Source: an uncultured SAR86 cluster bacterium (GTDB lineage Bacteria; Pseudomonadota; Gammaproteobacteria; Magnimaribacterales; AG-339-G14). From it: DNA of 64,000 nucleotides. Below the pieces are notes generated by a model. The model worked only from the letters and a program-made list of their open reading frames with translations, ran no database searches and was not told where the DNA came from. Location of the stretch: NCBI GenBank assembly GCA_902616715.1, contig CACMTR010000001.1:124001-188000 (forward strand), given 5' to 3'. The translations under genes and the position numbers were made by a program. Positions 494 through 56,407 of the stretch are shown here, piece after piece (position 1 is the stretch's first letter; every line of letters starts with the position of its first letter).

Positions 494-1738
494 TTAGACC
501 TCTACTTGAACTTTTGGTTCTCTAGGCATTCCAAGACCTCTTTCAGAGATAATATTTTTCTGAATCTGATTGGTGCCTCCACCAATAATTAGCCCAAGGA
601 AATACATGTAAGTGAATTGCCAGGAGCCACCACCTCGAACATTTGGATCATCTTCATATAAAGTACCTAGTTCTCCCATAATATCGATTGCGAGACCCTC
701 TAATTCATGACGTAATTCAGTACCAACTAACTTTTGAATCATGCCGCCAAGTTTCACATTTTGTCCTGGATTAATTTTTGCGGAAAGCAGTCTTAAAGAA
801 TGCGCTTGAGCTGCTAAAACTTTTCCTTGCACTTGAAGCAATCTGTCTCGATAAGAAGCCACATCAATTAATCTTCTTCCATCAATAGTTTCTTCTTTCA
901 TAAGATTAATGAGAGTATTCAATCTATTAAGAGTTACGTTCGGATTTGCAAGTGAACCTCTTTCGTGACCAAGTACAGAGTTCGCAACAGACCAACCTTC
1001 ACCTCTTTTGCCTACGATATTTTCTTCTGGCACTGTAACGTCATCAAAGAATACCTCGTTGAAACCTGCCTTTAAGGTCATATCAACTAATGGTCTAATT
1101 TCAATTCCCGGAGTATCCATAGGAATTAAGATAAAGCTAATCCCAGCATGTTTCGATGCTTCGGGTTCAGTCCTGACTAGACAAAACATCATTTGAGAGA
1201 ATTGTGCTGTACTGGTCCAAATTTTTTGACCATTTATTACCCACTTTCCATCAATAAGCTCGCCTTTAGTTTGTAAGCTTGCTAGATCACTACCCGCGTT
1301 AGGTTCTGAATAACCCTGACACCAAATCGTTTCACCATGAAGTGTCGACTCAATGTATTGTTGTTTTTGCTCTTCTGTTCCCCACTCCAAAAGAGTAGGC
1401 ACTAGCATATCTATGCCCTGGCCACCCATAGCATTAGGAACTTTATATTTTGCAAATGCACCAGCAATGATTCTACTTTTAATAATGTCAGGTTCGCCTC
1501 CATAGCCACCATATTCTTTGGGAATAGATCTAGCGAAGTATCCTTTTTCAATTAAAAGCTTTTGCCATTCTGATCTACCAACGGACTTACCAGATTTGCG
1601 AGAAGAATTTCCGGATAGTGCATCATGCATTTCAAATTTTTTATCATTTGATGTGATGACGGCACCACTATATTCTTTACAAAACTCTTCGACTTCATTT
1701 GTGAATTCGTCGTATTCTGAACCAAACTCTAAATTCAT
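494..1738 (-). CDS. Acyl-CoA dehydrogenase
   Basis: This is a full-length 414-residue acyl-CoA dehydrogenase. Visible family motifs are WCQGYSEPNAGSDLASL (about 139-155, FAD/substrate loop), the middle beta domain with GQKIWTSTAQ, and GGGTNQIQKNIISERGLG near the end (dinucleotide-binding turn). The YEGT glutamate of medium-chain enzymes is absent. Glu259 in GHERGS sits where isovaleryl-CoA-dehydrogenase-type enzymes carry their catalytic base (alignment from memory). A good Shine-Dalgarno (AAGGAG) lies just upstream of the ATG. It is followed after 3 bases by a second, partial acyl-CoA dehydrogenase. The electron acceptor is probably the ETF encoded at 39219-40897. The substrate is unknown. 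Confidence 0.93.
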   Translation of the reverse strand: MNLEFGSEYDEFTNEVEEFCKEYSGAVITSNDKKFEMHDALSGNSSRKSGKSVGRSEWQKLLIEKGYFARSIPKEYGGYGGEPDIIKSRIIAGAFAKYKVPNAMGGQGIDMLVPTLLEWGTEEQKQQYIESTLHGETIWCQGYSEPNAGSDLASLQTKGELIDGKWVINGQKIWTSTAQFSQMMFCLVRTEPEASKHAGISFILIPMDTPGIEIRPLVDMTLKAGFNEVFFDDVTVPEENIVGKRGEGWSVANSVLGHERGSLANPNVTLNRLNTLINLMKEETIDGRRLIDVASYRDRLLQVQGKVLAAQAHSLRLLSAKINPGQNVKLGGMIQKLVGTELRHELEGLAIDIMGELGTLYEDDPNVRGGGSWQFTYMYFLGLIIGGGTNQIQKNIISERGLGMPREPKVQVEV

Positions 1739-37456: not shown

Positions 37457-39109
37457 TTACATGTTGGGGTAGTTCGGACCACCCATCCCCTCAGGAGTAA
37501 CCCAAACAATATTTTGGCTGGGATCCTTGATATCACATGTTTTGCAATGAACGCAGTTTTGTGCGTTTATTTGAAATTTACTTTCTCCATCTTTTTCCAC
37601 TACTTCGTAGACTCCCGCAGGGCAATACCTCTGGGCGGGTTCGTCATATTCAGGAAGATTTACAGAAATAGGTATGGAAGAATCTTTGAGCGTTAAATGA
37701 CATGGTTGATCCTCCTCATGATTAGTATTTGAAAGAAAAACGGAAGATAATTTATCAAAACTAATTACTCCATCGGGTTTAGGGTAATCTATCTTTTCAC
37801 ATTCAGCTGCTTTTTTCATACAAGCATAGTCTGGAGTTTTATGTCTCCAAGTGAAAGGTAGCTTACCTCTAAATAAAAATTGTTCTATTCCCATAATTAA
37901 ACCGCCAATTAGGGTTCCATATTTATGTAGAAGGGCAGTCATGTTTCTAGATTTGTACAAATCAGTTTCAATCCAAGAGGATTTAAGTTTTTCTTCAAAA
38001 TCAATTAAATCTTCTCCAATCCTGTTTTTGCTAATAGCTTCAAATGCGCTCTCAGCAGCAAGCATTCCCGATTTCATGGCTGTATGTGTTCCTTTAATTT
38101 TTGTGAAAACCATCAAGCCGGCATCACAACCAACTAAAATTCCTCCAGGAAAGGTCATTTTTGGTCTTGAGTGGTAACCGCCTTTGGTTAAGGCTCTAGC
38201 CCCGTAAGCAACTCTAGTACCATTTTCTAAAAGTTTTTTTATATCTTTGTGATGTTTCCACTGTTGAAATTCATCAAAAGGACTTATGTGAGGATTAGAA
38301 TAATCCAAAGGCACAACAATACCTAAGTACACTTGGTTATTTTCTCCGTGATAACAATAAGAACCAGCATTTGACTTACTTGGCCAGCCAAATGAGTGCA
38401 TAACTGTTCCTTCTGAATGAACTTCTTTCGGAACATCCCAAACTTCTTTAAACCCTATTCCGTAATGTTGTGGATCGGAGTTTGCATCCAACGCGTATTT
38501 CGAAATTAATTTCTTTCCAAGATGACCCCTACATCCTTCGGCAAAAATTGTATATTTTGCTCTTAGTTCCATTGGAGGTTGGTAGGAAGGCTTTTTTTCA
38601 CCTTCTTTAGTAAGACCCATTTCTCCGGTTAAAATTCCTTTTACCATATCGTTTTCGTAAATAACCTCAGCGGCAGTAAAACCAGGAAATATCTCAACTC
38701 CTAGATTTTCAGCCTGAGTAGCTAACCAGCGGCAGAAATTTGCTAAGCTCATTACATAATTTCCATGATTGTTAAAGTTTGGAGCAAAAAAGGACGCAAA
38801 TGGTATACCCAGAGACAATTTCTCTGTTAAGAAAAATTTTACGATATCTTTTTTTGCTGGGGTGTTAAGTGGTGCACCTTTTTTCTTCCAATCAGGAATT
38901 AATTCATTGAGCGCAGTAGGTTCAAAACAATTTCCAGATAGTATGTGAGCACCTATTTCAGATCCTTTCTCAATTAAACAAACACTTAAATCTGAGTTAT
39001 TTTCAGCAGCTAACTGTTTTAATTTAATGGCAGTAGATAGGCCAGACGGACCTCCTCCGACGATGACCACGTCGTACTCCATTGAATCTACAGCAATTTC
39101 TTCACTCAT
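37457..39109 (-). CDS. etfD: Electron-transfer flavoprotein-ubiquinone oxidoreductase
   Basis: This 550-residue protein carries electrons from ETF to ubiquinone. The FAD motif is VVIVGGGPSGLSTAI (about 14-28), and the C-terminal 4Fe-4S ligands are in RYCPAGVYE and NCVHCKTCDIKDP. The GGILVGCDAGLM and KGTHTAMKSGMLAA segments are also characteristic. It is a monotopic inner-membrane enzyme. It is divergent from etfBA, sharing a 109-base intergenic region, so acyl-CoA dehydrogenase electrons from this genome can enter the quinone pool. Confidence 0.97.
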   Translation of the reverse strand: MSEEIAVDSMEYDVVIVGGGPSGLSTAIKLKQLAAENNSDLSVCLIEKGSEIGAHILSGNCFEPTALNELIPDWKKKGAPLNTPAKKDIVKFFLTEKLSLGIPFASFFAPNFNNHGNYVMSLANFCRWLATQAENLGVEIFPGFTAAEVIYENDMVKGILTGEMGLTKEGEKKPSYQPPMELRAKYTIFAEGCRGHLGKKLISKYALDANSDPQHYGIGFKEVWDVPKEVHSEGTVMHSFGWPSKSNAGSYCYHGENNQVYLGIVVPLDYSNPHISPFDEFQQWKHHKDIKKLLENGTRVAYGARALTKGGYHSRPKMTFPGGILVGCDAGLMVFTKIKGTHTAMKSGMLAAESAFEAISKNRIGEDLIDFEEKLKSSWIETDLYKSRNMTALLHKYGTLIGGLIMGIEQFLFRGKLPFTWRHKTPDYACMKKAAECEKIDYPKPDGVISFDKLSSVFLSNTNHEEDQPCHLTLKDSSIPISVNLPEYDEPAQRYCPAGVYEVVEKDGESKFQINAQNCVHCKTCDIKDPSQNIVWVTPEGMGGPNYPNM

Positions 39110-39218: not shown

Positions 39219-39971
39219 ATGAAGATTCTTATTCCAATTAAGAGAGTTGTCGACTACAACGTGAAAGTAAGGCCAATGGCAGATGAATCAGGCGTTGACT
39301 TAAATAACGTAAAAATGGCAATAAATCCATTTTGTGAGATTGCTGTGGAAGAAGCAGTAAGACTAAAAGAATCAGGTGCTGCAGAAGAAATAGTTTCAGT
39401 AACTATTGGATCTTCTGCTTCCCAAGAACAACTCAGAACTTCTTTAGCTTTAGGAGCTGATAGGGCGATTTTAGTTGAATCTGATGCGGAGGTAGAGCCG
39501 TTAGGAATCGCAAAGCTCCTAAAAGCAGTAGTAGAAAAAGAAAATCCAGATTTAATTATTATGGGAAAACAGGCAATTGACGGGGACAATAATCAAACTG
39601 GTCAGAAACTTGCTGCTTTATTAGGTTATCCTCAAGCAACTTTTGCTTCAGAATTATCCATTGCCGATGGTAAAGCCGTGGTGACCAGAGAAATTGATGG
39701 CGGCTTACAAACTGTTTCGGTAAATTTACCTGCAATCGTCACTACTGACTTGAGGTTAAATGAGCCAAGGTACGCATCATTACCCAACATAATGAAAGCA
39801 AAGTCTAAACCTCTTGATATTATGCCAGCTGCAGATTTTGGCCTAGACATTACCCCTAGAATATCTACATTGAAGGTGTCTTTGCCTCCTGAAAGAGAAG
39901 CTGGAGTCATAGTGGAAAGCGTAGACGAACTAATTGATAAACTAAAAAACGAAGCAAAGGTGATTTCATGA
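39219..39971 (+). CDS. etfB: Electron-transfer flavoprotein beta subunit
   Basis: This is the 250-residue ETF small subunit, which binds AMP and forms ETF with Etf[18 protein letters not shown] at the start, [14 protein letters not shown] (about 33-46), and [13 protein letters not shown] (about 121-133) are family motifs. The recognition loop region with [18 protein letters not shown] that contacts dehydrogenases is present. etfA overlaps by 4 bases. It accepts electrons from the acyl-CoA dehydrogenases in this window. Confidence 0.97.
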
Positions 39972-40897
39972 CAGCACTAGTAATCTCAGAACATAACAAC
40001 AATGAATTAAAACCAGTAACTCTTAACACTGTTACTGCTGCTAAAGCACTTGATGAAGAAGTGCATGTTCTAGTAGCTGGAAAGGATTGTGCAAGTGTAG
40101 CCGAAGCTTCAAGTAAGATTGAAGGCGTTACAAAAGTGCTTCTAATAGATTCAGAAGAATATGAGCATTTCTTAGCCGAAAACATATCAACCTTGGTTTC
40201 AAAAATTGCCGCTGAATATAATTTCATTTTGGCGCCCACAACTACCAGTGGTAAAAATTTTATGCCGAGAGTTGCAGCTCTCTTAGATGTCAGTCAAATT
40301 TCTGATATATGTGCTATCGAAAGTTCAGATACTTTTCAACGCCCGATTTACGCAGGAAATTGTATTGCAACAGTAAAAACAACTGACGAGAAAAAAGTTA
40401 TAACTGTTAGAACAACTGCTTTTGATGCCGCTCCTGCAGAAGCTGGTTCAGCAGACATTGTCTCCATGGAAGAGGTTCATGATTCAGGAATTTCAGAATT
40501 TATAAAAGAAGAGTTAGCTCAATCTGATAGACCTGAATTAACAGCTGCCGATGTAATTATTTCAGGAGGAAGAGGAATGCAAAACGGCGAAAATTTTTCT
40601 TTGCTTGAGGGTATTGCTGATAAATTAGGTGCGGCAATCGGCGCATCTAGAGCTGCCGTGGATTCGGGTTTTGTTCCAAATGATTATCAAGTTGGCCAAA
40701 CAGGTAAAATCGTTGCGCCAAATTTATACATCGCTGTAGGAATTTCTGGTGCGATTCAACATTTAGCGGGAATGAAAGATAGTAAAGTAATTGTCGCAAT
40801 TAACAAGGACGAGGATGCTCCAATCTTTCAAGTAGCGGATTATGGTCTAGTTGGCGATCTTTTTGATGTGGTTCCTGAATTGGAAGGCAAAATTTAA
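39968..40897 (+). CDS. etfA: Electron-transfer flavoprotein alpha subunit
   Basis: This is the 309-residue FAD-binding ETF subunit. The C-terminal FAD site shows [12 protein letters not shown] (about 197-208), [40 protein letters not shown] and [10 protein letters not shown]. The start is ATG 39968, overlapping etfB by 4 bases. nfuA follows after 5 bases. It passes electrons to the ETF-ubiquinone oxidoreductase encoded divergently. Confidence 0.97.
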
Positions 40898-43703: not shown

Positions 43704-46631
43704 TTAATTACTAAAAGATTTTAACTTATTTAAAACAAATTCTGATTTAGAATTCAGTTGATCAGGATAGTTGAAAGAAATTTCTTTCAAATTAGATTGT
43801 TTAGAAACTAAATTTGAATTTTCACTCAAAGATAAAGTGCATTTTTTATTGTCACCTCTTATCTTTGTTATAAGAAGATTACTCGATTCTATTCTTATGT
43901 GAGTTAAATTAATTAAAGTTTTAATATCTTCAGGAATAGATCCAAACCTATCTTCCAATTCTTTAATTAATTGATTCAGCGAATTAATATTTTTTACTGA
44001 GGAGAATTTTTTATAAATTTCTAATCTAACTTCAGTTTGAGGAATGAATGTTTCAGGAATGAAACCATTTTCTCCAATTTTTACCTCAAAATCTTCATAG
44101 GTTTCATCGATTCCTTCAAGAAGTTTTATAGATCTATTTATCATGGATGAAAAAAGACTTAACCCTACATAGTCTATGAGTCCACTTTGCTTTTCTCCTA
44201 AAATTTCCCCTGCTCCACGTATTTCTAAATCCCTCATAGCTAAATTAAATCCTGAGTTTAATGAATCACTAAATTTAAGAGCTTCAAGTCTAGCCATAGC
44301 ATTTTTTGATAAAGTTTTATCGGGAGTAATAAAAAAGTAAGCATAAGCCTGTCTATTTGATCTACCAACTCTTCCCCTTATTTGATGTAATTGCGATAAT
44401 CCGAAATTTTCAACACCTTCTATAATTAGAGTATTTGCATTAGCGATATCAATTCCACTTTCAATGATTGTCGTGCATAGAAGAATATCTATTTTTTTAT
44501 TGAGAAAGTTCAACATCACTTCTTTTAACTTCTTCGGAGTCATTTGGCCGTGAGCAATTTCTATTTTTGCTGTCGGAATTATCTTTCTAAGTTCAATAAG
44601 TTTTTCCTCTAGGTAAGAGACATTATTTACTAGATAAAAAACTTGACCCGATCTCGTAAATTCTCTTTCGATTGCTTCTTTGGCTAAACTTTTAGAATAA
44701 GTTGCGACTAAAGTTTCAACTGTTTTTCTTCCAGGTGGGGGGGTGCTAATAATTGATATATCTCTTACTCTAGAGAGGGCTAAATTTAAAGATCTTGGAA
44801 TAGGCGTAGCCGATAAAGAAATAGAATTAATGCCTTTAGAATATTTTCTAAGCTTTTCTTTTTGTCTCACACCAAACTTATGTTCCTCATCAATCACTAA
44901 AAGCCCTAAATCAAAAAATTCAAGTTGGTCACTTAAAAGTGCGTGAGTACCGATAATTATTGAAGTACTACCTTCACTTAAATTTTTGAAAATTGTTTTT
45001 TTTTCATTTAAAGTTTTTTCCCGCGAAATAAATTCAATTTTTATGTTTGTTTCTAAAAATCTTTCACGAAATAAATCGAAGTGTTGTCTAGCTAAAATAG
45101 TCGTAGGGGCGAGTACTGCAACTTGTTTATTATTTTTAGCACAGATAAAAGCTGCTCTGAGAGCGATCTCTGTTTTGCCGAATCCAACTTCTCCGCAAAT
45201 CAGCCTATCTTGAGGTTTCTCTGATGCAAGATCATTTTTTACTTCTGCAATAACACTAGCTTGATCGTTTGTCTCTTGAAATCCAAAACCTTTTGAGAAA
45301 GAATCTAATTCTTCTTGGTCAATAAGAAATTGCTTAGATTTATCTATTTTTCTTGAAGCTTCTGCTTCTAATAATTCTGCTGCAATATCAAAAGCCTTTT
45401 TTCTTGTTTTTTCTTTTTTTATTTTCCAGTTATTTTTTCTCAGTGAATCGAGTCTAATTTCGCTGTTACCATGATAAGGCGTAAGCAGATTCATCGAACT
45501 TATTGGAACATAAAGTGTTTCGCCTTCGGCATATTCAATAGCGAAACATTCGGTATTACTTAAATTTTTTAATCCTTTGAATATTCCAATCCCATGATTG
45601 CTATGTACAACTTTCGAATCAACTTTAAATTGGTACTGTTCTTCTTGAATAAAACTCTCTTTTTCATTTATTTTTTTTACAACTGTAGATCTATCTTCAT
45701 TAACAATATTTTTTTGGTCTTTATCAAGATCTACATTTTCAATACATATGCCTTTTTTTGCCAAGAAATCTTCTGCGCTATTAAATAGAATAGAAGGATT
45801 TAACGGAGGCCTATCTTCATTATTTATGAATTCCTCATATCTTAAGTTGATAATTTTCCAATAAGATTCTGAAGAGGCTTCTACATCTCCATAGAAAAAA
45901 ATGTCAAACTTTGAAAAGAAATCTTCAAATCTTGGCTTTTCAAGGTAGAAAAGTGGAAAGTAGGACTCTATCCCTTCAGGAAATCTGCCCTTCGAAACAT
46001 CATCAAAAATCTTTCCATCATTACTAAAATTTGATCTCCAGTTTTTTTTAAAAATAGCTATTGAGTCTGGATCAAGTGTAAAACCTTTTGAAGCTTTACA
46101 TTCATACTTATTAATTTTATGAATCCCAAGTTGTGAATCTTTATCAAAAGTCCTTATTGATTCAATAAAATTATCTTCTAAATTTATTCTTATAGGATTT
46201 CTCGAATTAATTGGAAAAATATCTATTACAGAACCTCTAATTGCAAATTCTCCTCTTGACGAGACGACTTGGACAGCTTCGTAGCCAGAAATTCCCAATT
46301 TATTTACGAGTTCATTTCTATCAATCTTTTTTTGGATTTCAAATAAATATGAAAATGAATTTATTGATGTCCTTTCAAAAAGAGGTTGTATTAAAGCATT
46401 AGTGGTCGTAAGTATAGTAATTTCTTCAGAATCAGCCTTCGAAAGTGTCTCTATTCGGTTGGAAAGGTTGTCTATATGAGGTGAAAAATTATCATATGGT
46501 AAAGTTTCAAACTCTTTGAAGATAAGAAAATTTTTAGACGAATTAATTCTTAAAAACTCAGAAACTAAGTTTAATTTAGACACATTTTCACAGATAACTA
46601 GGCTTTTTTTCTTATCTAAAATTCTATGCAT
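43704..46631 (-). CDS. mfd: Transcription-repair coupling factor Mfd, compact form
   Basis: This 975-residue protein removes RNA polymerase stalled at DNA damage and recruits UvrA. It begins with the UvrB-like domain (FETLPYDNFSPH, about 41-52), then the RNA-polymerase-interacting domain (VVHSNHGIGIFKG, 341-353), translocase with Walker A GEVGFGKTE (480-488), the DEEH box in LVIDEEHKFG, TRG region RGAGEILGEKQSG, and the C-terminal D7 domain. E. coli Mfd has 1148 residues; about 110 are missing between RPPLNPS (274-280) and VVHSNHG, where the D3 domain should be. ATG 46631 is the only good start. csiV follows. Confidence 0.93.
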   Translation of the reverse strand: MHRILDKKKSLVICENVSKLNLVSEFLRINSSKNFLIFKEFETLPYDNFSPHIDNLSNRIETLSKADSEEITILTTTNALIQPLFERTSINSFSYLFEIQKKIDRNELVNKLGISGYEAVQVVSSRGEFAIRGSVIDIFPINSRNPIRINLEDNFIESIRTFDKDSQLGIHKINKYECKASKGFTLDPDSIAIFKKNWRSNFSNDGKIFDDVSKGRFPEGIESYFPLFYLEKPRFEDFFSKFDIFFYGDVEASSESYWKIINLRYEEFINNEDRPPLNPSILFNSAEDFLAKKGICIENVDLDKDQKNIVNEDRSTVVKKINEKESFIQEEQYQFKVDSKVVHSNHGIGIFKGLKNLSNTECFAIEYAEGETLYVPISSMNLLTPYHGNSEIRLDSLRKNNWKIKKEKTRKKAFDIAAELLEAEASRKIDKSKQFLIDQEELDSFSKGFGFQETNDQASVIAEVKNDLASEKPQDRLICGEVGFGKTEIALRAAFICAKNNKQVAVLAPTTILARQHFDLFRERFLETNIKIEFISREKTLNEKKTIFKNLSEGSTSIIIGTHALLSDQLEFFDLGLLVIDEEHKFGVRQKEKLRKYSKGINSISLSATPIPRSLNLALSRVRDISIISTPPPGRKTVETLVATYSKSLAKEAIEREFTRSGQVFYLVNNVSYLEEKLIELRKIIPTAKIEIAHGQMTPKKLKEVMLNFLNKKIDILLCTTIIESGIDIANANTLIIEGVENFGLSQLHQIRGRVGRSNRQAYAYFFITPDKTLSKNAMARLEALKFSDSLNSGFNLAMRDLEIRGAGEILGEKQSGLIDYVGLSLFSSMINRSIKLLEGIDETYEDFEVKIGENGFIPETFIPQTEVRLEIYKKFSSVKNINSLNQLIKELEDRFGSIPEDIKTLINLTHIRIESSNLLITKIRGDNKKCTLSLSENSNLVSKQSNLKEISFNYPDQLNSKSEFVLNKLKSFSN

Positions 46632-46720: not shown

Positions 46721-47914
46721 ATGAATCTATCTTTTTCACCAGAAGATCTAAAATTTCAGGATGAGGTTAGAACTTTTCTAGAAAAAAACTATCCTGCCGA
46801 TGTTAAAAGGAAAATGGATAATGGCATTCCATTAGAAAGAGAAGACCATTTGAAATGGCAAAAAGTTTTAAGTAAAAAAGGTTGGTTTGCAGTAAATTGG
46901 CCGGAAGAATATGGTGGAACTGGCTGGTCGGTTACTCAAAAACATATATTTCAAAATGAATTAGCCGCTATAAATTCTCCTAATATAGTTCCTTTTGGAG
47001 TAAGCATGTGCGGTCCTGTAATTTACACTTTTGGAACTGAAGAACAAAAAGAAAAATTCCTTCCCGCCATCAGAGATAATGATGTTTGGTGGTGCCAAGG
47101 TTACTCTGAACCTGGATCAGGTTCTGATTTAGCATCCTTGAAAACAAAAGCTGAGAAGAAAGGAGACAAATACATAGTTAATGGAACTAAAACTTGGACT
47201 ACTATGGCACAACATGCTGATTGGATTTTCTGCTTGGTTAGAACAGATTCATCAGGAATTAAACAAGAAGGTATAAGTTTCTTATTAATAGATATGAAGT
47301 CTCCGGGGGTAGAGGTTAAGCCTATCATTACTATAGATGGTTCTCATGAAGTTAATATGGTCTATCTTGATAATGTTGAAGTTCCTGTTGAGAATTTAAT
47401 AGGAGAAGAGGGAGCTGGATGGAGTATTGCTAAATTTCTTTTGGCTCACGAAAGAACTGGAATAGGCGGCATTCCTCACTTAAAAAGAGAAATTAAAAGA
47501 TTGAGGGAAATTGCTAACGAGTTACCTTTGAATGATGGTTTTCTAAAAGATGACGACCTTTTTATGGATAAGTTGAATAAACTTGAAATAGATCTTTTAT
47601 CAGCTGAGTTTACAGAGCTAAGAACTTTAGCAGCTATGTCGGCAGGAGGTCACCCTGGACCTGAGTCTTCAATCTTAAAAATTGGAGGAACAGATCTACA
47701 GCAAGCACTTTCTGAATTATTTGTTGAAGCTCTAGGATATTATGCTCATCCTTTTATGAGTGAAGCAGATCTTGCATCAAATGAAAAAAGAATTGGCCCT
47801 GATTTTGCCGCAACTGCAATGCCTCATTACCTAAACTTTAGAAAAGTTTCGATTTACGGAGGAAGTAACGAAGTTCAAAGGAACGTGATTGCTAAAGCCG
47901 TTTTAGGTTTATAA
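46721..47914 (+). CDS. Acyl-CoA dehydrogenase (catalytic-type subunit)
   Basis: This is a 397-residue acyl-CoA dehydrogenase. Motifs: WCQGYSEPGSGSDLASLKT (124-142), NGTKTWTTMAQ, and YGGSNEVQRNVIAK near the end. The likely catalytic base is Glu244 in LAHERTG, in the position of isovaleryl-CoA dehydrogenase Glu (alignment from memory); YEGT is absent. It is followed after 10 bases by a second acyl-CoA dehydrogenase lacking these features, as in actinobacterial alpha2-beta2 enzymes. Electrons go to ETF. The substrate is unknown but could be a bulky or branched acyl-CoA. Confidence 0.94.
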   Translation: MNLSFSPEDLKFQDEVRTFLEKNYPADVKRKMDNGIPLEREDHLKWQKVLSKKGWFAVNWPEEYGGTGWSVTQKHIFQNELAAINSPNIVPFGVSMCGPVIYTFGTEEQKEKFLPAIRDNDVWWCQGYSEPGSGSDLASLKTKAEKKGDKYIVNGTKTWTTMAQHADWIFCLVRTDSSGIKQEGISFLLIDMKSPGVEVKPIITIDGSHEVNMVYLDNVEVPVENLIGEEGAGWSIAKFLLAHERTGIGGIPHLKREIKRLREIANELPLNDGFLKDDDLFMDKLNKLEIDLLSAEFTELRTLAAMSAGGHPGPESSILKIGGTDLQQALSELFVEALGYYAHPFMSEADLASNEKRIGPDFAATAMPHYLNFRKVSIYGGSNEVQRNVIAKAVLGL

Positions 47915-47924
47915 AAAATTTCAT

Positions 47925-49052
47925 ATGGATTTCGCTTTATCTGACGAACAGAAACAAGTTCAGGAGCTCATCACGCAGTTTATTGCTAAAGACTATCCTT
48001 TTGATGTTAGAGAAAAACTAGTTAAGTCAGAAGACGGTTTTAGTAGAGAATTCTGGAAAACTTTCGGCGAATTTGGCTTGCTAGCCATGCCTTTTCCTGA
48101 AGGAGACGGTGGATTCAATGGCGGGCCAGTTGATCTGATGGTAATTCTCGAGGCTTTTGGTACCGGTTTGATTGTTGAGCCTTACATACCAAACATCGTT
48201 TTATCAGGTCATTTGGTAAGCAAACTTGGCAGTGAAGACCAAAAAAAAGAAATACTACCTAAATTGATGTCAGGCGAACTTCAAATGTCTTTTGCCTTTA
48301 CAGAGCCACAAAGTAGGTTTGATCTAAATGATGTAACTACTTCCGCAAAACTCGATGGAGATAACTATGTGGTTGATGGATATAAAGCCGTTGTTATGAA
48401 TGGCCCAGCATCAGATAAGATCATTGTTTCATGTCGAACTTCGGGCAATCAATTGGATGAAGATGGAATTTCCCTTTTAATAATAGATAAGGATTCAAAA
48501 GGGCTCAGTTCAAGAGATTACTCTAATGTAGATGGATCAAAAGCTTCTGAAGTCACTCTTGAAAATGTTTCTGTGCCCAAAACTAATTTAATTGGTGATG
48601 AAGGTAAAGCCTTCAAAATTATTTCTCAAGTAATAGACCTAGCAACACTAGCTATATCAGCGGAAGCTGTTGGGATAATGCAAAAAATGAACGAATTAAC
48701 TCTTGAATATACTAAGACTAGAGAACAGTTTGGTCAGACTTTAAGTAAGTTTCAAGCTTTGCAACACAGAATGGTCGATACATTTATGGTTCACGAACAA
48801 ACTAAGTCACTTTTATTAATGGCTGCAGCAAAATTGAACGATAATGCGCCAGATGCGTCTAAATCTATATCGGCTTTAAAATTCCAAATTGGAAGTGCTG
48901 CTAAGCTGATAGGTGAAGAATCTATTCAACTTCATGGTGGAATGGGTGTAACAGAAGAAATGAGCATTGGTCATTACTTTAAAAGATTAACTACTATTAG
49001 AACTATTTTCGGGAATTCTGATTATCATTTAAAAAGATATTCCTCTCTTTAA
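47925..49052 (+). CDS. Acyl-CoA dehydrogenase (partner-type subunit)
   Basis: This 375-residue protein has the acyl-CoA dehydrogenase fold: MDFALSDEQKQVQELITQFI at the start, FAFTEPQSRFDLNDV in the flavin loop, TREQFGQTLSKFQALQHRM and QLHGGMGVTEEMSI. The C-terminal dinucleotide turn reads IFGNSDYHL in place of YxGTxxIQ, and no Glu is at the HER position of its neighbour. So it probably cannot act alone and forms a heteromer with the protein at 46721 (inference from known ChsE4-ChsE5-like enzymes). The GAPDH gene follows after 3 bases. Confidence 0.92.
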   Translation: MDFALSDEQKQVQELITQFIAKDYPFDVREKLVKSEDGFSREFWKTFGEFGLLAMPFPEGDGGFNGGPVDLMVILEAFGTGLIVEPYIPNIVLSGHLVSKLGSEDQKKEILPKLMSGELQMSFAFTEPQSRFDLNDVTTSAKLDGDNYVVDGYKAVVMNGPASDKIIVSCRTSGNQLDEDGISLLIIDKDSKGLSSRDYSNVDGSKASEVTLENVSVPKTNLIGDEGKAFKIISQVIDLATLAISAEAVGIMQKMNELTLEYTKTREQFGQTLSKFQALQHRMVDTFMVHEQTKSLLLMAAAKLNDNAPDASKSISALKFQIGSAAKLIGEESIQLHGGMGVTEEMSIGHYFKRLTTIRTIFGNSDYHLKRYSSL

Positions 49053-49055
49053 GAA

Positions 49056-50540
49056 ATGACAGAGATAAAGTCTGATACTAATCCAGACAAAAGAAAAAGA
49101 GATAAACCAGATAATTACCTAGATAACTGGATTGAGAGACAGTCTCTAATTGAGTCTGCAATACCTATCATTGGAAAGATGCATAGGAAAAACGTTCGAA
49201 TTCTTCTTTATGGCGCTCCTTTAATGACACTCTCTGTAATTGAAATTATGCAGTTACATAGAAAAGTTAGAGAAGCAGAAGGAAATGAATTAAGCGAATT
49301 CGAAACCTCAAAGGTTTTAGAATGCTTAGATGCTATAGATGTCGGTCCTTGCCAATTAGATATTGGAATTTTAGCTGCAGGATATATGTTTGATTCCAAG
49401 GGATTGCCTTTGGAGGAATTTGTTAAAGAGCAAGTAAAAGATGTAATCGGTATACACACACCAATCCTGGATAAGTCACAAGATTTAGTTTTGTATGGGT
49501 TTGGTCGGATTGGTAGACTTTTTACAAGACTTCTATTGGAAGACACTGGAGCAGGCGAAACTCTTTGTTTAAAAGCTGTAGTAACAAGATCAGGATCCGA
49601 TGAAGATCTTCTAAAAAGAGCAGAACTGATGCGAAAAGATTCAGTGCATGGCAGATTTAAAGGCACTATCAGAGTCGACGAACAAGAAAATGCTCTAATT
49701 ATGAACGGAAATGTTGTGAAGTTCATTTCTGCTGATAGTCCAGATAAAGTTGATTATGCGAGCTGTGGAATTTCTAACGCTATTGTTATTGATAATACAG
49801 GAATGTCATCTTCAAAAGAGGGTTTAGAAAAACACTTAAAAAATAAAGAGATAAAAAAAGTTTTATTTACTGCTCCAGTAAAAAAAGATTTAAAGAATAT
49901 AGTTTACGGAGTCAATCACGACAACATTGCTGACCAAGACACAATAATTGGAGCTGCATCCTGTACAACGAATGCAATCGTACCTGTTTTAAGCGCTGTC
50001 GATAAAGAATTTGGAATTGATAATGGTCATGTAGAGACGATACATTCCTATACTAATGATCAAAACCTTATCGATAATTACCATAGAAAATCAAGAAGGG
50101 GGAGGGCTGCAGCTCTGAATATGGTGATTACTGAAACTGGAGCTGCTAGCGCAGTTTCACAAATTTTAACTAATTTAGAAGGAAGACTTAGCGCCAATGC
50201 AATAAGGGTTCCTACACCAAATGTTTCTTTAGCAATTTTAAGTTTGTATCTTAAAAATTCTTCTAATCAAGAAAATTTTATTGAATTTTTAAAACAAACC
50301 GCTTTTCATAGTTTATTGAAGGACCAAATTGACTTTACACAATCAGCTGAAGTCGTCTCCTCTGATATTGTCGGCGGAAGATATGCCGGAGTAATAGATG
50401 GACAAGCCACTAGATGTAACAATAGAAACGCCATAATTTATTTATGGTATGACAATGAAATTGGCTACTGTGCGCAATTAATTAAAGTCGTCAAAAGAAT
50501 GGCTGGTATTAAATATATAAAATTACCTAATTTCTTATAA
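49056..50540 (+). CDS. gap: Glyceraldehyde-3-phosphate dehydrogenase, long form
   Basis: This 494-residue protein carries a GAPDH after an N-terminal extension of about 143 residues. The NAD motif is YGFGRIGR (147-154), the catalytic Cys303 lies in AASCTTNAIVP, and His330 in HVETIHSYTNDQ; the C-terminus has WYDNEIGY. The long extension is typical of the GAPDH next to nqr and mfd in Pseudomonas and other gammaproteobacteria (PA3001 type, from memory). It interconverts glyceraldehyde-3-phosphate and 1,3-bisphosphoglycerate. nqrA follows after 21 bases. Confidence 0.93.
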   Translation: MTEIKSDTNPDKRKRDKPDNYLDNWIERQSLIESAIPIIGKMHRKNVRILLYGAPLMTLSVIEIMQLHRKVREAEGNELSEFETSKVLECLDAIDVGPCQLDIGILAAGYMFDSKGLPLEEFVKEQVKDVIGIHTPILDKSQDLVLYGFGRIGRLFTRLLLEDTGAGETLCLKAVVTRSGSDEDLLKRAELMRKDSVHGRFKGTIRVDEQENALIMNGNVVKFISADSPDKVDYASCGISNAIVIDNTGMSSSKEGLEKHLKNKEIKKVLFTAPVKKDLKNIVYGVNHDNIADQDTIIGAASCTTNAIVPVLSAVDKEFGIDNGHVETIHSYTNDQNLIDNYHRKSRRGRAAALNMVITETGAASAVSQILTNLEGRLSANAIRVPTPNVSLAILSLYLKNSSNQENFIEFLKQTAFHSLLKDQIDFTQSAEVVSSDIVGGRYAGVIDGQATRCNNRNAIIYLWYDNEIGYCAQLIKVVKRMAGIKYIKLPNFL

Positions 50541-50561: not shown

Positions 50562-51917
50562 ATGGTTTTTAAAATAAAAAAAGGACTGGAAATACCTATT
50601 AAGGGCGAACCTAGTTTGGACACAGTGAACGAAGTCACAACAAAGTCAGTGGGCGTTCTCGGAAGTGATTTTCATGGCATGAAGCCAACTATGTTAGTAA
50701 AGGAGGATGACAGTGTTGTAAAAGGCCAACCTTTATTTGAGGATAAAAAAAATCCAGGCGTAATTTTCACAGCACCAGTATCTGGAATTATTTCAAGCAT
50801 CAACAGAGGAGATAGAAGGGCTTTTTTATCTTTGATAATAGAAAAAAAAGAAAATGATTTAGATCAAATAGAATTTTCAACATCTCAAAATTTATCAGAT
50901 CTTGATAATGAGACAATCGTAAATACTTTAATAAATTCTGGAACATGGACTGCATTTAGAACTAGACCTTTTTCGAAAATACCCAACATCCAAGATCGTC
51001 CTAATGAAATCTTTATTTCTTTGATCGACTCAAATCCCTTAAGTATCGATCCAGAGTTGATCATTAAATCCGATGAAGAACATTTTAATGAAGGCTTAAA
51101 AGTTCTACTGCGCTTAACAAACAACTCTTTAAATGTATCCACAAAACCATCAAGTACGATAAAAAAACTTGATTTAGAAAATCTATTTTATTACGAGTTT
51201 GATGGACCTCATCCGGTTGGCTTAGTTGGGACTCAAATTCATAACATATCACCTGCATCACTTTCTAATCAAATATGGACGATTGGATATCAGGATGTCC
51301 TAATGATTGGAAAACTTTTCAAAACTGGTCTATTAGATAATACAAAAAAAATAGCTTTATCAGGTCCAATGGTTAAAGACCCAACTATGATTATTTCTGA
51401 AAATGGAGCAAATTTAGATGAAATTCTTGACGGTAAAACTATAGGTGAAAATAATAGAATTATTTCAGGTTCTGTTCTGAATGGATCTGAATCTAAAGCT
51501 CCTACAAATTTTTTAGGCAGATATCATAATCAAATAACTGTTCTGAGAGAGGTAAATAAAGGCGATAGAGAATTTTTAAATTTTTTGAGACCTGAGTTAA
51601 AGAAACACTCTTTTTTAAGAGTATTTCTAACCAAATTAAAAGAAAAAGGTTTAAATTTAAATTACACAACCGCAATGAATGGTTCTGATCGCGCCATAGT
51701 CCCATTAGGAATATATGAGGATATATTTCCTTATAAGATAATGATTACTCAATTGTTGCGTAGTATAGTTGTCGGCGATACTGAGTCAGCTCAAAAGCTT
51801 GGAATACTTGAATTAGATGAGGAAGACTTAGCTCTCTGTACTTATTCCTGTCCTAGCAAATACGACTACGGATCATTATTAAGGGAAATGCTTACTAAAA
51901 TTGAAGAAGAAGGTTAA
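50562..51917 (+). CDS. nqrA: Na+-translocating NADH:quinone reductase subunit A
   Basis: This 451-residue peripheral subunit of the Na+-NQR contributes to the quinone site. The start MVFKIKKGLEIPIKGEP and the segments HGMKPTMLVKEDD, FEDKKNPGVIFTAPVSG and GPHPVGLVGTQIHNISP are conserved. The complex oxidises NADH, reduces ubiquinone and pumps Na+. It starts the operon nqrABCDEF-apbE-nqrM, whose genes overlap or abut. No clear Shine-Dalgarno is visible. Confidence 0.96.
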   Translation: MVFKIKKGLEIPIKGEPSLDTVNEVTTKSVGVLGSDFHGMKPTMLVKEDDSVVKGQPLFEDKKNPGVIFTAPVSGIISSINRGDRRAFLSLIIEKKENDLDQIEFSTSQNLSDLDNETIVNTLINSGTWTAFRTRPFSKIPNIQDRPNEIFISLIDSNPLSIDPELIIKSDEEHFNEGLKVLLRLTNNSLNVSTKPSSTIKKLDLENLFYYEFDGPHPVGLVGTQIHNISPASLSNQIWTIGYQDVLMIGKLFKTGLLDNTKKIALSGPMVKDPTMIISENGANLDEILDGKTIGENNRIISGSVLNGSESKAPTNFLGRYHNQITVLREVNKGDREFLNFLRPELKKHSFLRVFLTKLKEKGLNLNYTTAMNGSDRAIVPLGIYEDIFPYKIMITQLLRSIVVGDTESAQKLGILELDEEDLALCTYSCPSKYDYGSLLREMLTKIEEEG

Positions 51918-53141
51918 ATGAGTGATCCTCTAAGAAACTTATTTGATAAATCTAAACCTCTATTTGAAGGTAAAGGTAGATTTGCGCGTTTTTTCCCTTT
52001 GTTTGATGTTTTTGAAAATCTCTTTTATTCCTCAGAAAGGAAGACTTCAGGCCTAACTCACGTAAGAGATGGGAGTGATATCCAAAGAGTAATGGTAGTG
52101 GTTTGGTTAGCAACTTTCCCTACTATGTTTTTTGGTATGTACAACATTGGTTATCAGGCTTTAGCAGCTCTTGAAGCAATTAATTTGGCAGGAGCTGAAC
52201 ACATTAAAGATTGGCACTGGCCATTAGTACAGCTTTTTTCGGGTTTAGATCCTAATAGTATTTTAGATTGTATAGCCTATGGTGCGATTTATTTTATTCC
52301 AATTTACTTAGTAACTTTTTTTGTCGGGATTGCCTGGGAAATGGTATTTGCCGTAGTTCGTCAACATGAAATCAGTGAAGGAGCCTTTGTAACTACAGTA
52401 CTTTTTGCTCTTTCTTGTCCTCCCGATGCTCCATTATGGCAAGTAGCTTTAGGTATTAGTGTTGGACTTGTTATTGGAAAAGAAATCTTTGGTGGTACAG
52501 GGAAAAATTTTTTAAATCCTGCTCTAACTGGAAGAGCTTTTTTATATTTCGCTTATCCTGCATCTTGGTCAGGAGATATGTCATGGGTTGCGGTAGATGG
52601 CTATACGGCTGCAACAATGCTCGGTATTTCTGCTCAAGACGGTTATGCCAACATGCCAGATGCCTTTACTTGGAGCAATGCTTTTTTTGGATTGGTGCCA
52701 GGCTCTATAGGAGAAACTTCTACAGTTGCGATTTTGGTAGGATTAGCCATTCTTCTTTTCACCAAAATAGCTTCTTATAGGATTGTTGGAGGAGTAATTT
52801 TAGGAACAATTGTTACATCGTATCTATTTAATTTAATTGGAAGTGATACAAATCCAATGTTTCAAATGCCATTTTGGTGGCACATGGTCATGGGGGGGTA
52901 TGCATTTGGGTTAGTCTTTATGGCCACGGAGCCTGTATCTGGGTCACACACCAATACTGGAAGATGGATTTATGGTTTTGTTATCGGATTTATGGTGATA
53001 ATGATTAGAGTTTTAAATCCAGCATATCCTGAAGGAATGATGCTTGCCATACTTTTTGGCAATTTACTTTCTCCGTTAATAGATCATTTTGTAGTTTCTC
53101 GAAATATTAGTTATAGAGTTAAGGTTTTGAATGCAAAATAA
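51918..53141 (+). CDS. nqrB: Na+-NQR subunit B
   Basis: This 407-residue membrane subunit holds riboflavin and covalently bound FMN. About ten hydrophobic helices are visible. The FMN-Thr motif reads DGYTAATMLG (227-236), with Thr233 the likely attachment residue, close to Thr236 of Vibrio (from memory). The GKNFLNPALTGRAF segment is conserved. It starts right after the nqrA stop and overlaps nqrC by 11 bases. Confidence 0.96.
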   Translation: MSDPLRNLFDKSKPLFEGKGRFARFFPLFDVFENLFYSSERKTSGLTHVRDGSDIQRVMVVVWLATFPTMFFGMYNIGYQALAALEAINLAGAEHIKDWHWPLVQLFSGLDPNSILDCIAYGAIYFIPIYLVTFFVGIAWEMVFAVVRQHEISEGAFVTTVLFALSCPPDAPLWQVALGISVGLVIGKEIFGGTGKNFLNPALTGRAFLYFAYPASWSGDMSWVAVDGYTAATMLGISAQDGYANMPDAFTWSNAFFGLVPGSIGETSTVAILVGLAILLFTKIASYRIVGGVILGTIVTSYLFNLIGSDTNPMFQMPFWWHMVMGGYAFGLVFMATEPVSGSHTNTGRWIYGFVIGFMVIMIRVLNPAYPEGMMLAILFGNLLSPLIDHFVVSRNISYRVKVLNAK

Positions 53142-53907
53142 AGACAGCATAAAAAATACTTTATTTATTGGATTAGGGCTTTGCCTAGTCTGCGCTGCAG
53201 TAATATCTTTTATTGCAGTTGGTTTAAAACAACTTCAGAAACAAAACATCATTATCGATCAACAGAAAAAAATTGTCGCTGCAGCAAATTTAGAAAGTTT
53301 TTATGGAAGTGTTTCCAATGCTTACAATTCTATAGAAGAAATTGTCATCGATCTTGACACAGGTAACTTCACCGATTTGAGTCCAGAAGAATATGATCTC
53401 TCTAAGGAACTTCAAGACACTTCAAAATATATAAGCCTGTCATCATCGGAAGATATAGCAACTATCAAAGTAAGAGAAAATTTTTCGAAAGTTTTCCTCG
53501 AATATAGAGATGGAGATCTGAATACAGTAATTTTGCCAGTAAGAGGCTATGGTCTATGGGGTATTCTTTATGGTTATTTAGCTATATCTAACGATTTAAA
53601 TACAATAGTAGGGTTAGAGTTTTACGAACATAAAGAGACTCCAGGGTTAGGTGCTGAAATCGATAATCCTGCCTGGAAGGCCTTATGGAACGGAAAAAAA
53701 CTCTTTGATGAAGAGGGAAATTTATTAATAAAAGTTATTAAAGGTAAAGTAACAGTGAACGAAGCTAATTCAAATTACAAAGTTGATGGATTGTCTGGAG
53801 CTACGTTAACCAGTAACGGAGTAACCAACTTACTTGCTTTTTGGTTAGGAGAGTTAGGTTATTTAAAATTTTTATCTAACTTAAAAGAAGAGGTTTCAAA
53901 TGTCTAA
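53131..53907 (+). CDS. nqrC: Na+-NQR subunit C
   Basis: This 258-residue protein has one N-terminal helix (about 10-32) and a periplasmic domain. The FMN attachment motif is [12 protein letters not shown] (219-230) with Thr225, the residue flavinylated in Vibrio NqrC (from memory). The transferase is ApbE, encoded at the end of this operon. It overlaps nqrB and nqrD. Confidence 0.96.
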
Positions 53908-54571
53908 AGCTTCTGATGTATTGTTCGCGCCACTTTTTAAGGATAATCCTATTGCTTTGCAAGTGTTGGGAATCTGTTCTGCGTTAGCTGTGACTAGCAA
54001 GCTTTATCCAACTCTTATAATGTGCGTCGCTTTAACAGCAACAATAACTTTATCGAGCTTCTTTATCTCTCTTATCAGAAACTATATTCCTAACAATATT
54101 AGAATCATAGTTCAAATGACTATAATTTCCTCATTAGTCATTATTGTGGATCAACTTCTCAAAGCATACGATTACGAAACAAGTAAAACTTTATCTGTTT
54201 TTGTCGGCCTGATAATTACCAATTGTATAGTCATGGGAAGAGCGGAAGCTTACGCAATGCAAAATGGTCCAGCAATGAGTGCACTTGACGGATTTGGCAA
54301 TGGACTTGGGTATAGTCTAATCTTGATAATTGTTGGTTCCATTAGAGAATTGATTGGAAGTGGGCAGCTTTTAGGTTATCAAATACTTCACATGACAACT
54401 GATGGTGGTTGGTATGTTCCCAATAATTTCTTTTTATTACCCCCCGCATCTTTTTTAATAATTGGTCTTTTTATATGGGCTTTGAGAGTTTGGAAAAAAG
54501 AACAAGTTGAAGTTCCCGAATTTTCAATGAAACAAAACGCGCCCAAGGAAATAAAGGTGGAACATGCTTGA
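53900..54571 (+). CDS. nqrD: Na+-NQR subunit D
   Basis: This 223-residue membrane subunit has six hydrophobic helices. [20 protein letters not shown] at the start, [14 protein letters not shown] (with the Fe-coordinating Cys) and [14 protein letters not shown] are conserved with NqrD/RnfE. NqrD and NqrE together bind a 2Fe-2S centre in the membrane. It overlaps both neighbours by 8 bases. Confidence 0.96.
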
Positions 54572-55175
54572 GCAATATTTAAGCATCCTAGTTAATTCTA
54601 TTTTTATTGAAAATATTGCTCTTTCAGTATTCTTAGGAATGTGCACTTTTATTGCCATTTCAAAAAAAATTGAAGCAGCAATAGGATTGGGTATAGCGGT
54701 AATAGTCGTTATTGGAATTACAGTGCCTTTGAACAATCTTATTTATACATACGTGCTTAAAGAAGGCGCCTTGTCTTGGTTAGGTTATCCGGAAGTGTCA
54801 CTAGAATTTGTTGGGTTAATTAGTTACATAGGGATAATTGCTGCGGTAGTACAAATTTTAGAAATGTTTTTAGATAAATATGTCCCGGTTCTCTATAACG
54901 CTTTAGGAGTTTTTCTACCTTTAATTACAGTTAACTGTGCAATTTTAGGTGCCTCATTGTTTATGGTTGAGAAAAGTTTAGCTTTTGGCGAAAGTGTCGT
55001 TTATGGACTTGGAGCAGGTATTGGTTGGGCATTAGCAATTGCTATGCTAGCTGGTATTAGAGAAAAACTAAAATATAGTGACATTCCCGAAGGACTTCAA
55101 GGATTAGGTATTACTTTCATCACAGTTGGATTGATGTCTTTTGGTTTCATGTCCTTTGGAGGAATAAGTTTGTAA
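54564..55175 (+). CDS. nqrE: Na+-NQR subunit E
   Basis: This 203-residue protein has six membrane helices and is homologous to NqrD/Rnf[21 protein letters not shown] near the start and [17 protein letters not shown] carry the conserved Cys residues that with NqrD bind the membrane Fe-S centre. The stop codon's last base is the first base of nqrF's ATG. Length is at the family norm. Confidence 0.96.
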
Positions 55176-56407
55176 TGGTCGATACAATTGAAATAATCTT
55201 AGGAATTGTTTCTTTTACGATAATCGTAAATTTAATGATTTTCGTGATTTTACTTGCTAGGTCCAGATTGGTTTCAACTGGAGATGTCACGGTAGAAATT
55301 AATGGTGATCCTGAAAAAACAATTAGCGTTCCTGCCGGAGGCAAATTATTACAAACTTTAGCTGAACAAAATTTATTTTTATCCTCAGCCTGCGGCGGCG
55401 GCGGAACTTGTGCTCAATGTAGATGCCAAGTATTTGATGGAGGAGGATCGATCTTATCTACCGAAGAAGCTCACTTTAATAATCGAGAAAAGAAAAACAA
55501 TTGGCGTCTTTCATGTCAGGTTCCCGTTAAAGGAGACATGAAAATTCAAATTCCTGATGAGGTATTTGGCGTTAAACGATGGGAAACTACTGTTGTCTCT
55601 AACGATAACGTTGCTACTTTTATAAAAGAGTTAATTCTAAAGTTACCTGATGGCGAAGACGTAGGTTTTGATGCAGGAGGTTACGTCCAGATGGAAATTC
55701 CACCTTACAAAGCTGACTATAAATCTTTTAGCATCCAGGATATTTACAAAGGCGACTGGGAAAAATTCAAAGTCTTTGAAAATGTTTCTACTGTTGGAGT
55801 TCCAGTCATTAGAGCTTACTCTATGGCTAACTATCCGGAGGAAAAGGGCATCATGAAATTCAATATTAGAATTGCTTCACCTCCCCCTGGAACTAGTTTT
55901 CCTCCAGGAGAAGCTTCTTCATATTTATTTAATTTAAAGCCTGGAGATAAGTTAACCATTTTTGGTCCTTTCGGAGAATTTATGGCAAGAGAAACACTTA
56001 ACGAAATGGTGTTCATAGGAGGTGGCGCTGGGATGGCACCTATGAGATCTCATATATTCGATCAGTTACTAAGATTAGATTCTTCAAGAAAAATAAGCTT
56101 TTGGTATGGAGCGAGAAGTTTAAAGGAAATGTTTTATGTTGACGATTTTAATAGGCTTCAAGACCAATATGAAAATTTTTCTTGGCATGCAGCTTTATCA
56201 GATCCTCTTGAAGACGACAATTGGGATGGCAAGACTGGCTTTATTCATCAAGTTCTTCTAGAAAATTATTTGAAAGATCATCCTGCACCTGAAGATTGTG
56301 AATATTATCTCTGTGGGCCTCCAATGATGATGGAAGCATGTTTTAAAATGCTTGATAGCCTTGGGGTCGAACCTGAGAACATAATGTTCGATGACTTCGG
56401 TGGCTAG
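55175..56407 (+). CDS. nqrF: Na+-NQR subunit F, NADH dehydrogenase flavoprotein
   Basis: This 410-residue subunit accepts electrons from NADH. It has one N-terminal helix (about 6-28), a 2Fe-2S ferredoxin domain with Cys73, Cys79, Cys82 and Cys114, an FAD domain with RAYSMANYP, and an NADH domain with [14 protein letters not shown] and LCGPPMMM. The order and the Cys spacing match Vibrio NqrF. apbE overlaps its end by 17 bases. Confidence 0.97.

Follow-up and report, generated by a model that had tools for sequence, protein, structure and literature searches.

The gene pair described here lies in a 64,000-nucleotide stretch of DNA (the window; positions 124,001 to 188,000 of contig CACMTR010000001.1, assembly GCA_902616715.1) of an uncultured SAR86 cluster bacterium, and its closest described counterparts are acyl-CoA dehydrogenases made of two unlike subunits, alpha and beta. 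Pimeloyl-CoA dehydrogenase of Rhodopseudomonas palustris has a large subunit, PimC, and a small subunit, PimD, encoded in pimFABCDE, and the 2005 work on the pim operon is cited for growth on diacids in PMC12016538 and PMC2864759. For Ralstonia CL21, PMC12543098 reports a PimCD-like pair (ABZR87_RS14790/14795) with 74% similarity to PimCD, whose fitness defects were strong on dicarboxylic acids of C8-C12 and, among fatty acids, weak on heptanoic acid only; homologues with similar profiles and synteny existed in three other bacteria, and a heterotetramer was considered possible. For the ChsE enzymes, among them ChsE4-ChsE5 (FadE26-FadE27, PDB 4x28), PMC11153573 states that the Glu and the binding of the flavin ring belong to alpha, and that beta contacts the ADP-ribose part of flavin adenine dinucleotide (FAD). 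One FAD is bound per dimer interface, and the steroid dehydrogenase Tcur3481-Tcur3483 (6wy8/6wy9) is described as alpha2beta2, both according to PMC8399759. Fic32-33 (8hk0) is called a complex by its structure title only.

In the window, alpha (46721..47914, + strand, 397 amino acids) and beta (47925..49052, + strand, 375 amino acids) are open reading frames (ORFs) separated by 10 bp, each with three acyl-CoA dehydrogenase Pfam domains above the cut-off. Alpha is a PimC-type acyl-CoA dehydrogenase by its curated family (TIGR03204) and its clade, with 4x28_A as the best PDB sequence; beta is a PimD-type homologue without the catalytic Glu by its curated family (TIGR03203), clade and residues. 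With a probability of roughly 55%, the two genes would encode a PimCD-type heteromeric core dehydrogenase of SAR86, linked to electron transfer flavoprotein (ETF) and acting on a diacid-like substrate. From the computed features of the pair (complementary residues, clade and conserved gene order), its assembly, activity, electron route and substrate may be proposed. Alpha and beta would assemble as a heteromer, most likely an alpha2beta2 complex that has two active sites. The catalytic Glu244, the pocket for the acyl-CoA and the part of the FAD pocket that faces the flavin ring would come from alpha, and beta, presumably catalytically dead, would complete the FAD site. The acyl-CoA would be converted into 2,3-enoyl-CoA, and the electrons would pass to ETF, then to ETF:ubiquinone oxidoreductase (ETF-QO) and ubiquinone. 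It would be a core SAR86 enzyme, and its genes stand in the conserved order mfd - alpha - beta - gap - nqr.

Residues divided between alpha and beta

Glu244 of alpha (codon 47450..47452, +) occupies the position of the IVD/LCAD-type catalytic base and aligns to the HER of ChsE4 (4x28_A), and YGGSNEVQ at residues 379-386 (47855..47878, +) puts Gly380 in the slot of the MCAD-type Glu. In beta, the column of Glu244 holds Ala240 (48642..48644, +) and YGGSNEVQ is lacking, so both proteins agreed with the original prediction on these points. Two motifs were present in beta and not in alpha, REQFG (residues 266-270; 48720..48734, +) and QLHGGMG (residues 335-341; 48927..48947, +), which probably bind FAD, as such motifs do in this family.

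These columns were followed in an alignment of 113 selected proteins with over-long ORFs trimmed. Grouped counts covered 100 rows, with the two ChsE4-clade pairs from SAR86 family f3 assigned to the ChsE4 and ChsE5 groups, and 13 rows were left uncounted (three of L100, two of L101, L089_1968, L089_783, L082_1235, L218_5007, L218_6267, L217_1475, L220 and L106_8130, the last identical to L011). Glu was present at column 244 in 18/18 SAR86 alphas, 21/21 other PimC-type alphas and 8/8 ChsE4-clade alphas, and all 18 SAR86 alphas also had Asp136, Trp159, Thr160 and a Gly in the MCAD-type Glu slot. None of the 18 SAR86 betas had Glu at column 244 (Ala in 12, Gly in 3, Ser in 3), and their MCAD-type slot was filled by Phe in 17 and Tyr in one. 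Arg266 and Phe269 existed in every SAR86 beta, with Gly270 in 15 of the 18, and at these two columns Arg or Phe was found in 0/18 SAR86 alphas, seven of which had a gap. Gln335, His337, Gly338, Gly339 and Gly341 were each kept in 18/18 SAR86 betas; the 18 alphas had Glu at the Gln335 column, no His at 337, and Gly at 338 in 17.

The Glu split was also observed when the 21 other PimC-type alphas were compared with 18 PimD-type betas and the 8 alphas of the ChsE4 clade with 7 betas, and it held for the window genome's three other pairs. The motif split was complete in the PimC/PimD-type rows and less clean in other groups, where one ChsE4-clade alpha had Arg at 266, ChsE5-clade betas had His (6) or Arg (1) at 335, and one beta among the genome's three other pairs had Glu at column 335. 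In the alignment the FAD-site motifs are divided between alpha and beta, and the two proteins very likely form one two-subunit enzyme built like ChsE4-ChsE5.

Two separate homomeric enzymes that are simply neighbours would agree with the complete Pfam domain sets of both proteins. But 18/18 betas have no acid at both known base positions, the Arg, Phe, Gln and His of the beta motifs occur in 0/18 alphas, and the Glu split is repeated in the other PimC-type and PimD-type rows and in the genome's three other pairs, which makes this explanation very improbable. Beta as an active homomer was rejected on its residues.

AlphaFold2 models were made as single chains. For the alpha model (26 sequences, mean pLDDT 78, pTM 0.77) the top fold matches were 4x28_B, 6wy9_A, 4x28_A and 6wy8_B, followed by two 8hk0 chains. 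For the beta model (20 sequences, mean pLDDT 90, pTM 0.90) they were 6wy8_A, 6wy8_C and 6wy9_B, with 4x28_C, which we infer to be ChsE5, at rank 8. In the PDB sequence matches, 6wy8_B is named as Tcur3483 and 6wy8_A as Tcur3481. Identity to Tcur3481-Tcur3483 and Fic32-33 was 28% or less.

A pattern like that of ChsE4-ChsE5, as suggested originally, therefore stood with respect to the complementary half-sites and the architecture: the alpha/beta arrangement, the Glu on alpha only and most of the motif division are common to both, and the predicted fold is similar. In contrast, the clade and the length of the pocket loop differ, the ChsE5-clade betas depart at the Gln335 column, and no steroid-gene link was found for the SAR86 pair in this comparison. 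The further step to a sterol substrate was not supported. The two-half architecture alone could not be read as steroid use, since the PimC/PimD branch has it too.

Family placement and the sterol reading

In NCBIfam, the first-ranked family was PimC (TIGR03204, 503 bits) for alpha and PimD (TIGR03203, 371 bits) for beta. Against the PimC model, a Mesorhizobium relative (L079) gave 667 bits, the annotated Roseomonas pimC 598, a SAR86 f4 alpha 470, the second pair of the window genome 277 and a Nocardia ChsE4-type protein (a 340-residue piece) 206. Twelve acyl-CoA dehydrogenase C-terminal domains were identified in the window genome (1.16 Mb, 6 contigs, 86% complete), in four adjacent alpha-beta pairs (8) and 4 single enzymes, and the product of 46721-47914 was by far the most PimC-like alpha (502.5 bits; runner-up 277.1). 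The SAR86 pair shares with PimC-PimD the best curated families and the adjacent alpha and beta genes, and is in one clade with the annotated pimC/pimD of Roseomonas mucosa (L130) and with L079, whose score is above the PimC cut-off. It differs in scoring under the equivalog cut-offs and in being linked to gap and nqr instead; none of pimA, pimB, pimF and pimE was recognised beside it, the neighbours being mfd, gap and nqr.

In a 114-row tree (quick search, SH-aLRT only), 39 rows made up the PimC-type alpha clade (support 100), the ChsE4 clade stood apart with 9 rows (support 99), and the betas separated in the same way. In a careful 40-row alpha tree, the PimC-type clade had support 99/99 and the ChsE4 clade 100/100. 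Forcing the SAR86 alphas with the ChsE4 clade cost 29.8 log units and was rejected by the approximately unbiased (AU) test at p 0.0155, with ChsE4-clade rows chosen after the quick tree and the question itself taken from the original prediction. ChsE4 was represented by a piece of 4x28_A with 345 residues, and the proteobacterial steroid references L218 and L219 were labelled by their neighbours (such as genes for lipid-transfer, MaoC and OB-fold proteins). The pair falls in the PimC/PimD clade, apart from ChsE4/ChsE5, and is very probably an ordinary though order-wide example of this already known enzyme type.

An enzyme like ChsE4-ChsE5 that acts on the bulky side-chain CoAs of sterols, as first proposed for the pair, or of bile acids would fit the common alpha/beta architecture and the match to 4x28_A, and a steroid pathway was reported in all three SAR86 draft genomes studied in PMC4810484. 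Clade and AU test speak against it. In addition, KshA_C, a marker of steroid-ring degradation, was found in 3/12 SAR86 genomes (G001, G030 and G089), whereas alpha was found in all 12. KshA_C had no match in the window genome or in its 97% complete congener G003, although this is a single marker whose absence leaves individual steroid reactions possible. The KshA_C-positive G030 and G089 had a distinct second pair of the ChsE4/ChsE5 clade (L121 2272-4553; L126 952-3272), located between etfA and nfuA. Given this separate pair and the different distribution of KshA_C and alpha, the PimC/PimD-type pair is not tied to steroid catabolism, and the sterol explanation is quite improbable. A sterol side-chain substrate was rejected as the likelier reading by the trees, the AU test, the curated families and the one steroid marker.

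A helix-breaking proline, which PMC11153573 connects with the wide pockets of LCAD and ChsE4, could also be cited for a sterol substrate. Counted by eye, it was present at residue 87 in 18/18 SAR86 alphas and in 8/8 of the ChsE4 clade. This first proline also existed in 17/21 other PimC-type alphas, in 0/4 single enzymes and in 2/3 of the other alphas of the genome, and because most other PimC-type alphas share it, the proline loop was not taken as proof of a bulky substrate.

The ChsE4/ChsE5-clade pair of G030 and G089, which lies within a few kb of the PimC/PimD pair, is a candidate steroid side-chain dehydrogenase of SAR86. The three other alpha-beta pairs of the window genome were located at window 494-1738 (−) together with G000:C1:123418-124482, at L106 11073-13505 and at L107 7321-9655. 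In the trees, the last of these is placed with the second of the pairs in a steroid-side-chain-like cluster that a Vibrio alfacsensis plasmid carries (L218), although the window genome has no KshA_C match.

Electron route and substrate

Acyl-CoA dehydrogenases usually pass their electrons to ETF. The ETF and ETF-QO genes were identified about 6-9 kb upstream of the pair, namely etfB (39219..39971, +) and etfA (39968..40897, +), both by Pfam PF01012/PF00766, and ETF:ubiquinone oxidoreductase (37457..39109, −) by PF05187 and PF21162, which fits an ETF-linked enzyme. In the upstream flank, etfA was present in 44/55 SAR86 loci with a flank of more than 8.5 kb.

By analogy with the Ralstonia and pim literature, we infer that the substrate may be acyl-CoAs of medium chain length whose far end is polar, for example dicarboxylyl-CoAs, as for PimCD. 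The same heteromer could instead use ordinary or branched fatty acyl-CoAs as a general beta-oxidation dehydrogenase of SAR86, which is possible though doubtful. In its favour, the five f4 genomes had only three acyl-CoA dehydrogenases each, or four in G004, of which the pair made up two and the remainder resembled single enzymes, and the proline of residue 87, with its link to wide pockets, is present in 18/18 SAR86 alphas. However, the PimCD-like pair of Ralstonia was strong on C8-C12 dicarboxylates and weak on one fatty acid only, according to PMC12543098. The 3HCDH domain (PF00725) was not found in the window genome (G000), the congener G003, or the f4 genomes G008, G012 and G004, SDR-type (short-chain dehydrogenase/reductase) 3-hydroxyacyl-CoA dehydrogenases not being searched for; it was found in one of the six genomes scanned, an f3 genome. 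Thus the classical FadB-type spiral was not seen in these five genomes, and either a different kind of enzyme would catalyze the 3-hydroxyacyl-CoA step or the step would be missing. Domains of thiolase and enoyl-CoA hydratase were present in the four of these genomes that were searched for them, G003, G008, G012 and G004.

The pair could also make one stand-alone double bond in a core pathway, possibly in biosynthesis or salvage, outside the beta-oxidation spiral. Its retention in the five f4 genomes with 3-4 dehydrogenases would agree with this, as would three f4 genomes in which thiolase domains and enoyl-CoA hydratases number 1-2 each and 3HCDH was not found. Such a role is unlikely, since the 3HCDH result did not cover SDR-type or other 3-hydroxyacyl-CoA dehydrogenases, and relatives outside SAR86 are located in beta-oxidation operons.

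Several points weigh against the preferred explanation, a PimCD-type core enzyme with a diacid-like substrate. Both subunits were under the curated cut-offs (PimC 503 vs 624; PimD 371 vs 653), so neither could be called an equivalog, and several PimC-type groups were not separated from each other in the careful alpha tree. Three of the four single dehydrogenases of the window genome also had no Glu at both columns (these three had Asp at the MCAD-type column, and Arg and Gln existed in all 4 singles), so loss of Glu alone is no proof of inactivity. The alpha model was weak at the C-terminus, with pLDDT below 50 in segments between 343 and 397, and many homomeric members of the family scored almost equal to the top fold matches, so that the ranking gives support and not proof. 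The neighbours of the pair are housekeeping genes, and no dicarboxylate gene was recognised among them. The alpha clade was found elsewhere in operons of varied content; in the survey outside SAR86 (six plasmid regions picked from 196 matching records), the relatives stood with thiolases, hydratases, 3-hydroxyacyl-CoA dehydrogenases or CoA ligases in mixed combinations, one of them with pimA. Finally, 33/199 genomes of the order, including 2/40 of high quality, had no alpha match at E 1e-100.

SAR86 has hardly been cultured, so its diet is deduced from genes. The sterol label would be a wrong lead here, and the PimCD-type label points to the use of diacids or medium-chain acids by an order-wide enzyme.

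Distribution and gene order

At a threshold of E up to 1e-100, alpha had a match in 166/199 genomes of the order, in 38/40 high-quality genomes and in all 22 genera. Identity of alpha was up to 97% in relatives named SAR86 and 99% in one Gammaproteobacterium assembly. A literature search on SAR86 and acyl-CoA dehydrogenase returned no paper with this pair in the title or the opening of the abstract.

Downstream of beta, after 3 bp, the window contains gap (49056..50540, +), a long-form glyceraldehyde-3-phosphate dehydrogenase by NF006139/PRK08289 (662 bits vs a cut-off of 431), then nqrABCDEF (50562..56407, +) for the Na+-translocating NADH:quinone reductase, identified by the NqrA, NqrB and NqrF domains. 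Upstream is the divergent mfd (43704..46631, −; Pfam TRCF, UvrB_inter and CarD_TRCF_RID). Two unlike acyl-CoA dehydrogenases between mfd and a long gap, followed by nqr, had been described in the original prediction, and ORFs and domains confirmed this arrangement.

The locus comparison, which showed gap, nqr and mfd to be kept neighbours, covered 64 SAR86 loci. Nine were set aside, eight because they end too early downstream and L104, at a contig end, because its alpha matches were below the filter. The order alpha-beta-gap-nqrA on one strand was intact in 54/55 loci with enough downstream sequence; the exception was L078, with alpha and beta fragmented. nqrA was counted across loci, and nqrB to nqrF were present in the compared loci as far as the sequence reaches. 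The median spacings were 2.5, 12 and 25 bp (rough values from BLAST ends), and these short distances suggest that alpha-beta-gap-nqr is a single transcript. In 54/58 SAR86 loci with enough upstream sequence, mfd was the next gene upstream. Therefore the pair does stand between mfd and gap as was said, but this is the usual order of SAR86 and not a local event; a local insertion was rejected, and the insertion once suggested was not established. In the family f4 loci (L116-L119), mfd was unmatched between nfuA and the pair, nfuA was the next matched gene, and the remaining block was kept.

With this distribution, the pair looks like a core enzyme of SAR86. More tentatively, the PimCD-type dehydrogenase, joined in a single block with glycolytic gap and the sodium pump, may be the core, perhaps indispensable, acyl-CoA dehydrogenase of these streamlined bacteria, whose role would be a fixed core reaction rather than a changing diet; for an indispensable enzyme, a fixed reaction would follow from its retention in genomes stripped of most other acyl-CoA dehydrogenases.

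Outside SAR86, alpha had a match in 20/229 genomes of the class at E up to 1e-100 (23/232 when three SAR86 genomes are included). The 22 loci of non-SAR86 Gammaproteobacteria with this gap were compared with the window proteins, with a Pfam scan of upstream ORFs in 10/22; one had mfd-alpha-beta-gap and two had mfd beside gap (L168 and L172), within 1.5 kb upstream, where a divergent mfd could escape. The neighbourhood of mfd and gap that the original prediction gave for Pseudomonas thus does exist in Gammaproteobacteria, in these two loci. The single complete case was G239 (L214, contig 152), a Gammaproteobacterium of 3.2 Mb, in which mfd-alpha-beta-gap is followed by an extra small ORF and then nqrA-F. 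Thus the block also exists outside SAR86; within the order of G239, a search returned G239 alone. In another Gammaproteobacterium (L183, G422), etfB and etfA were located directly upstream of a long-form gap, a second link between gap and ETF.

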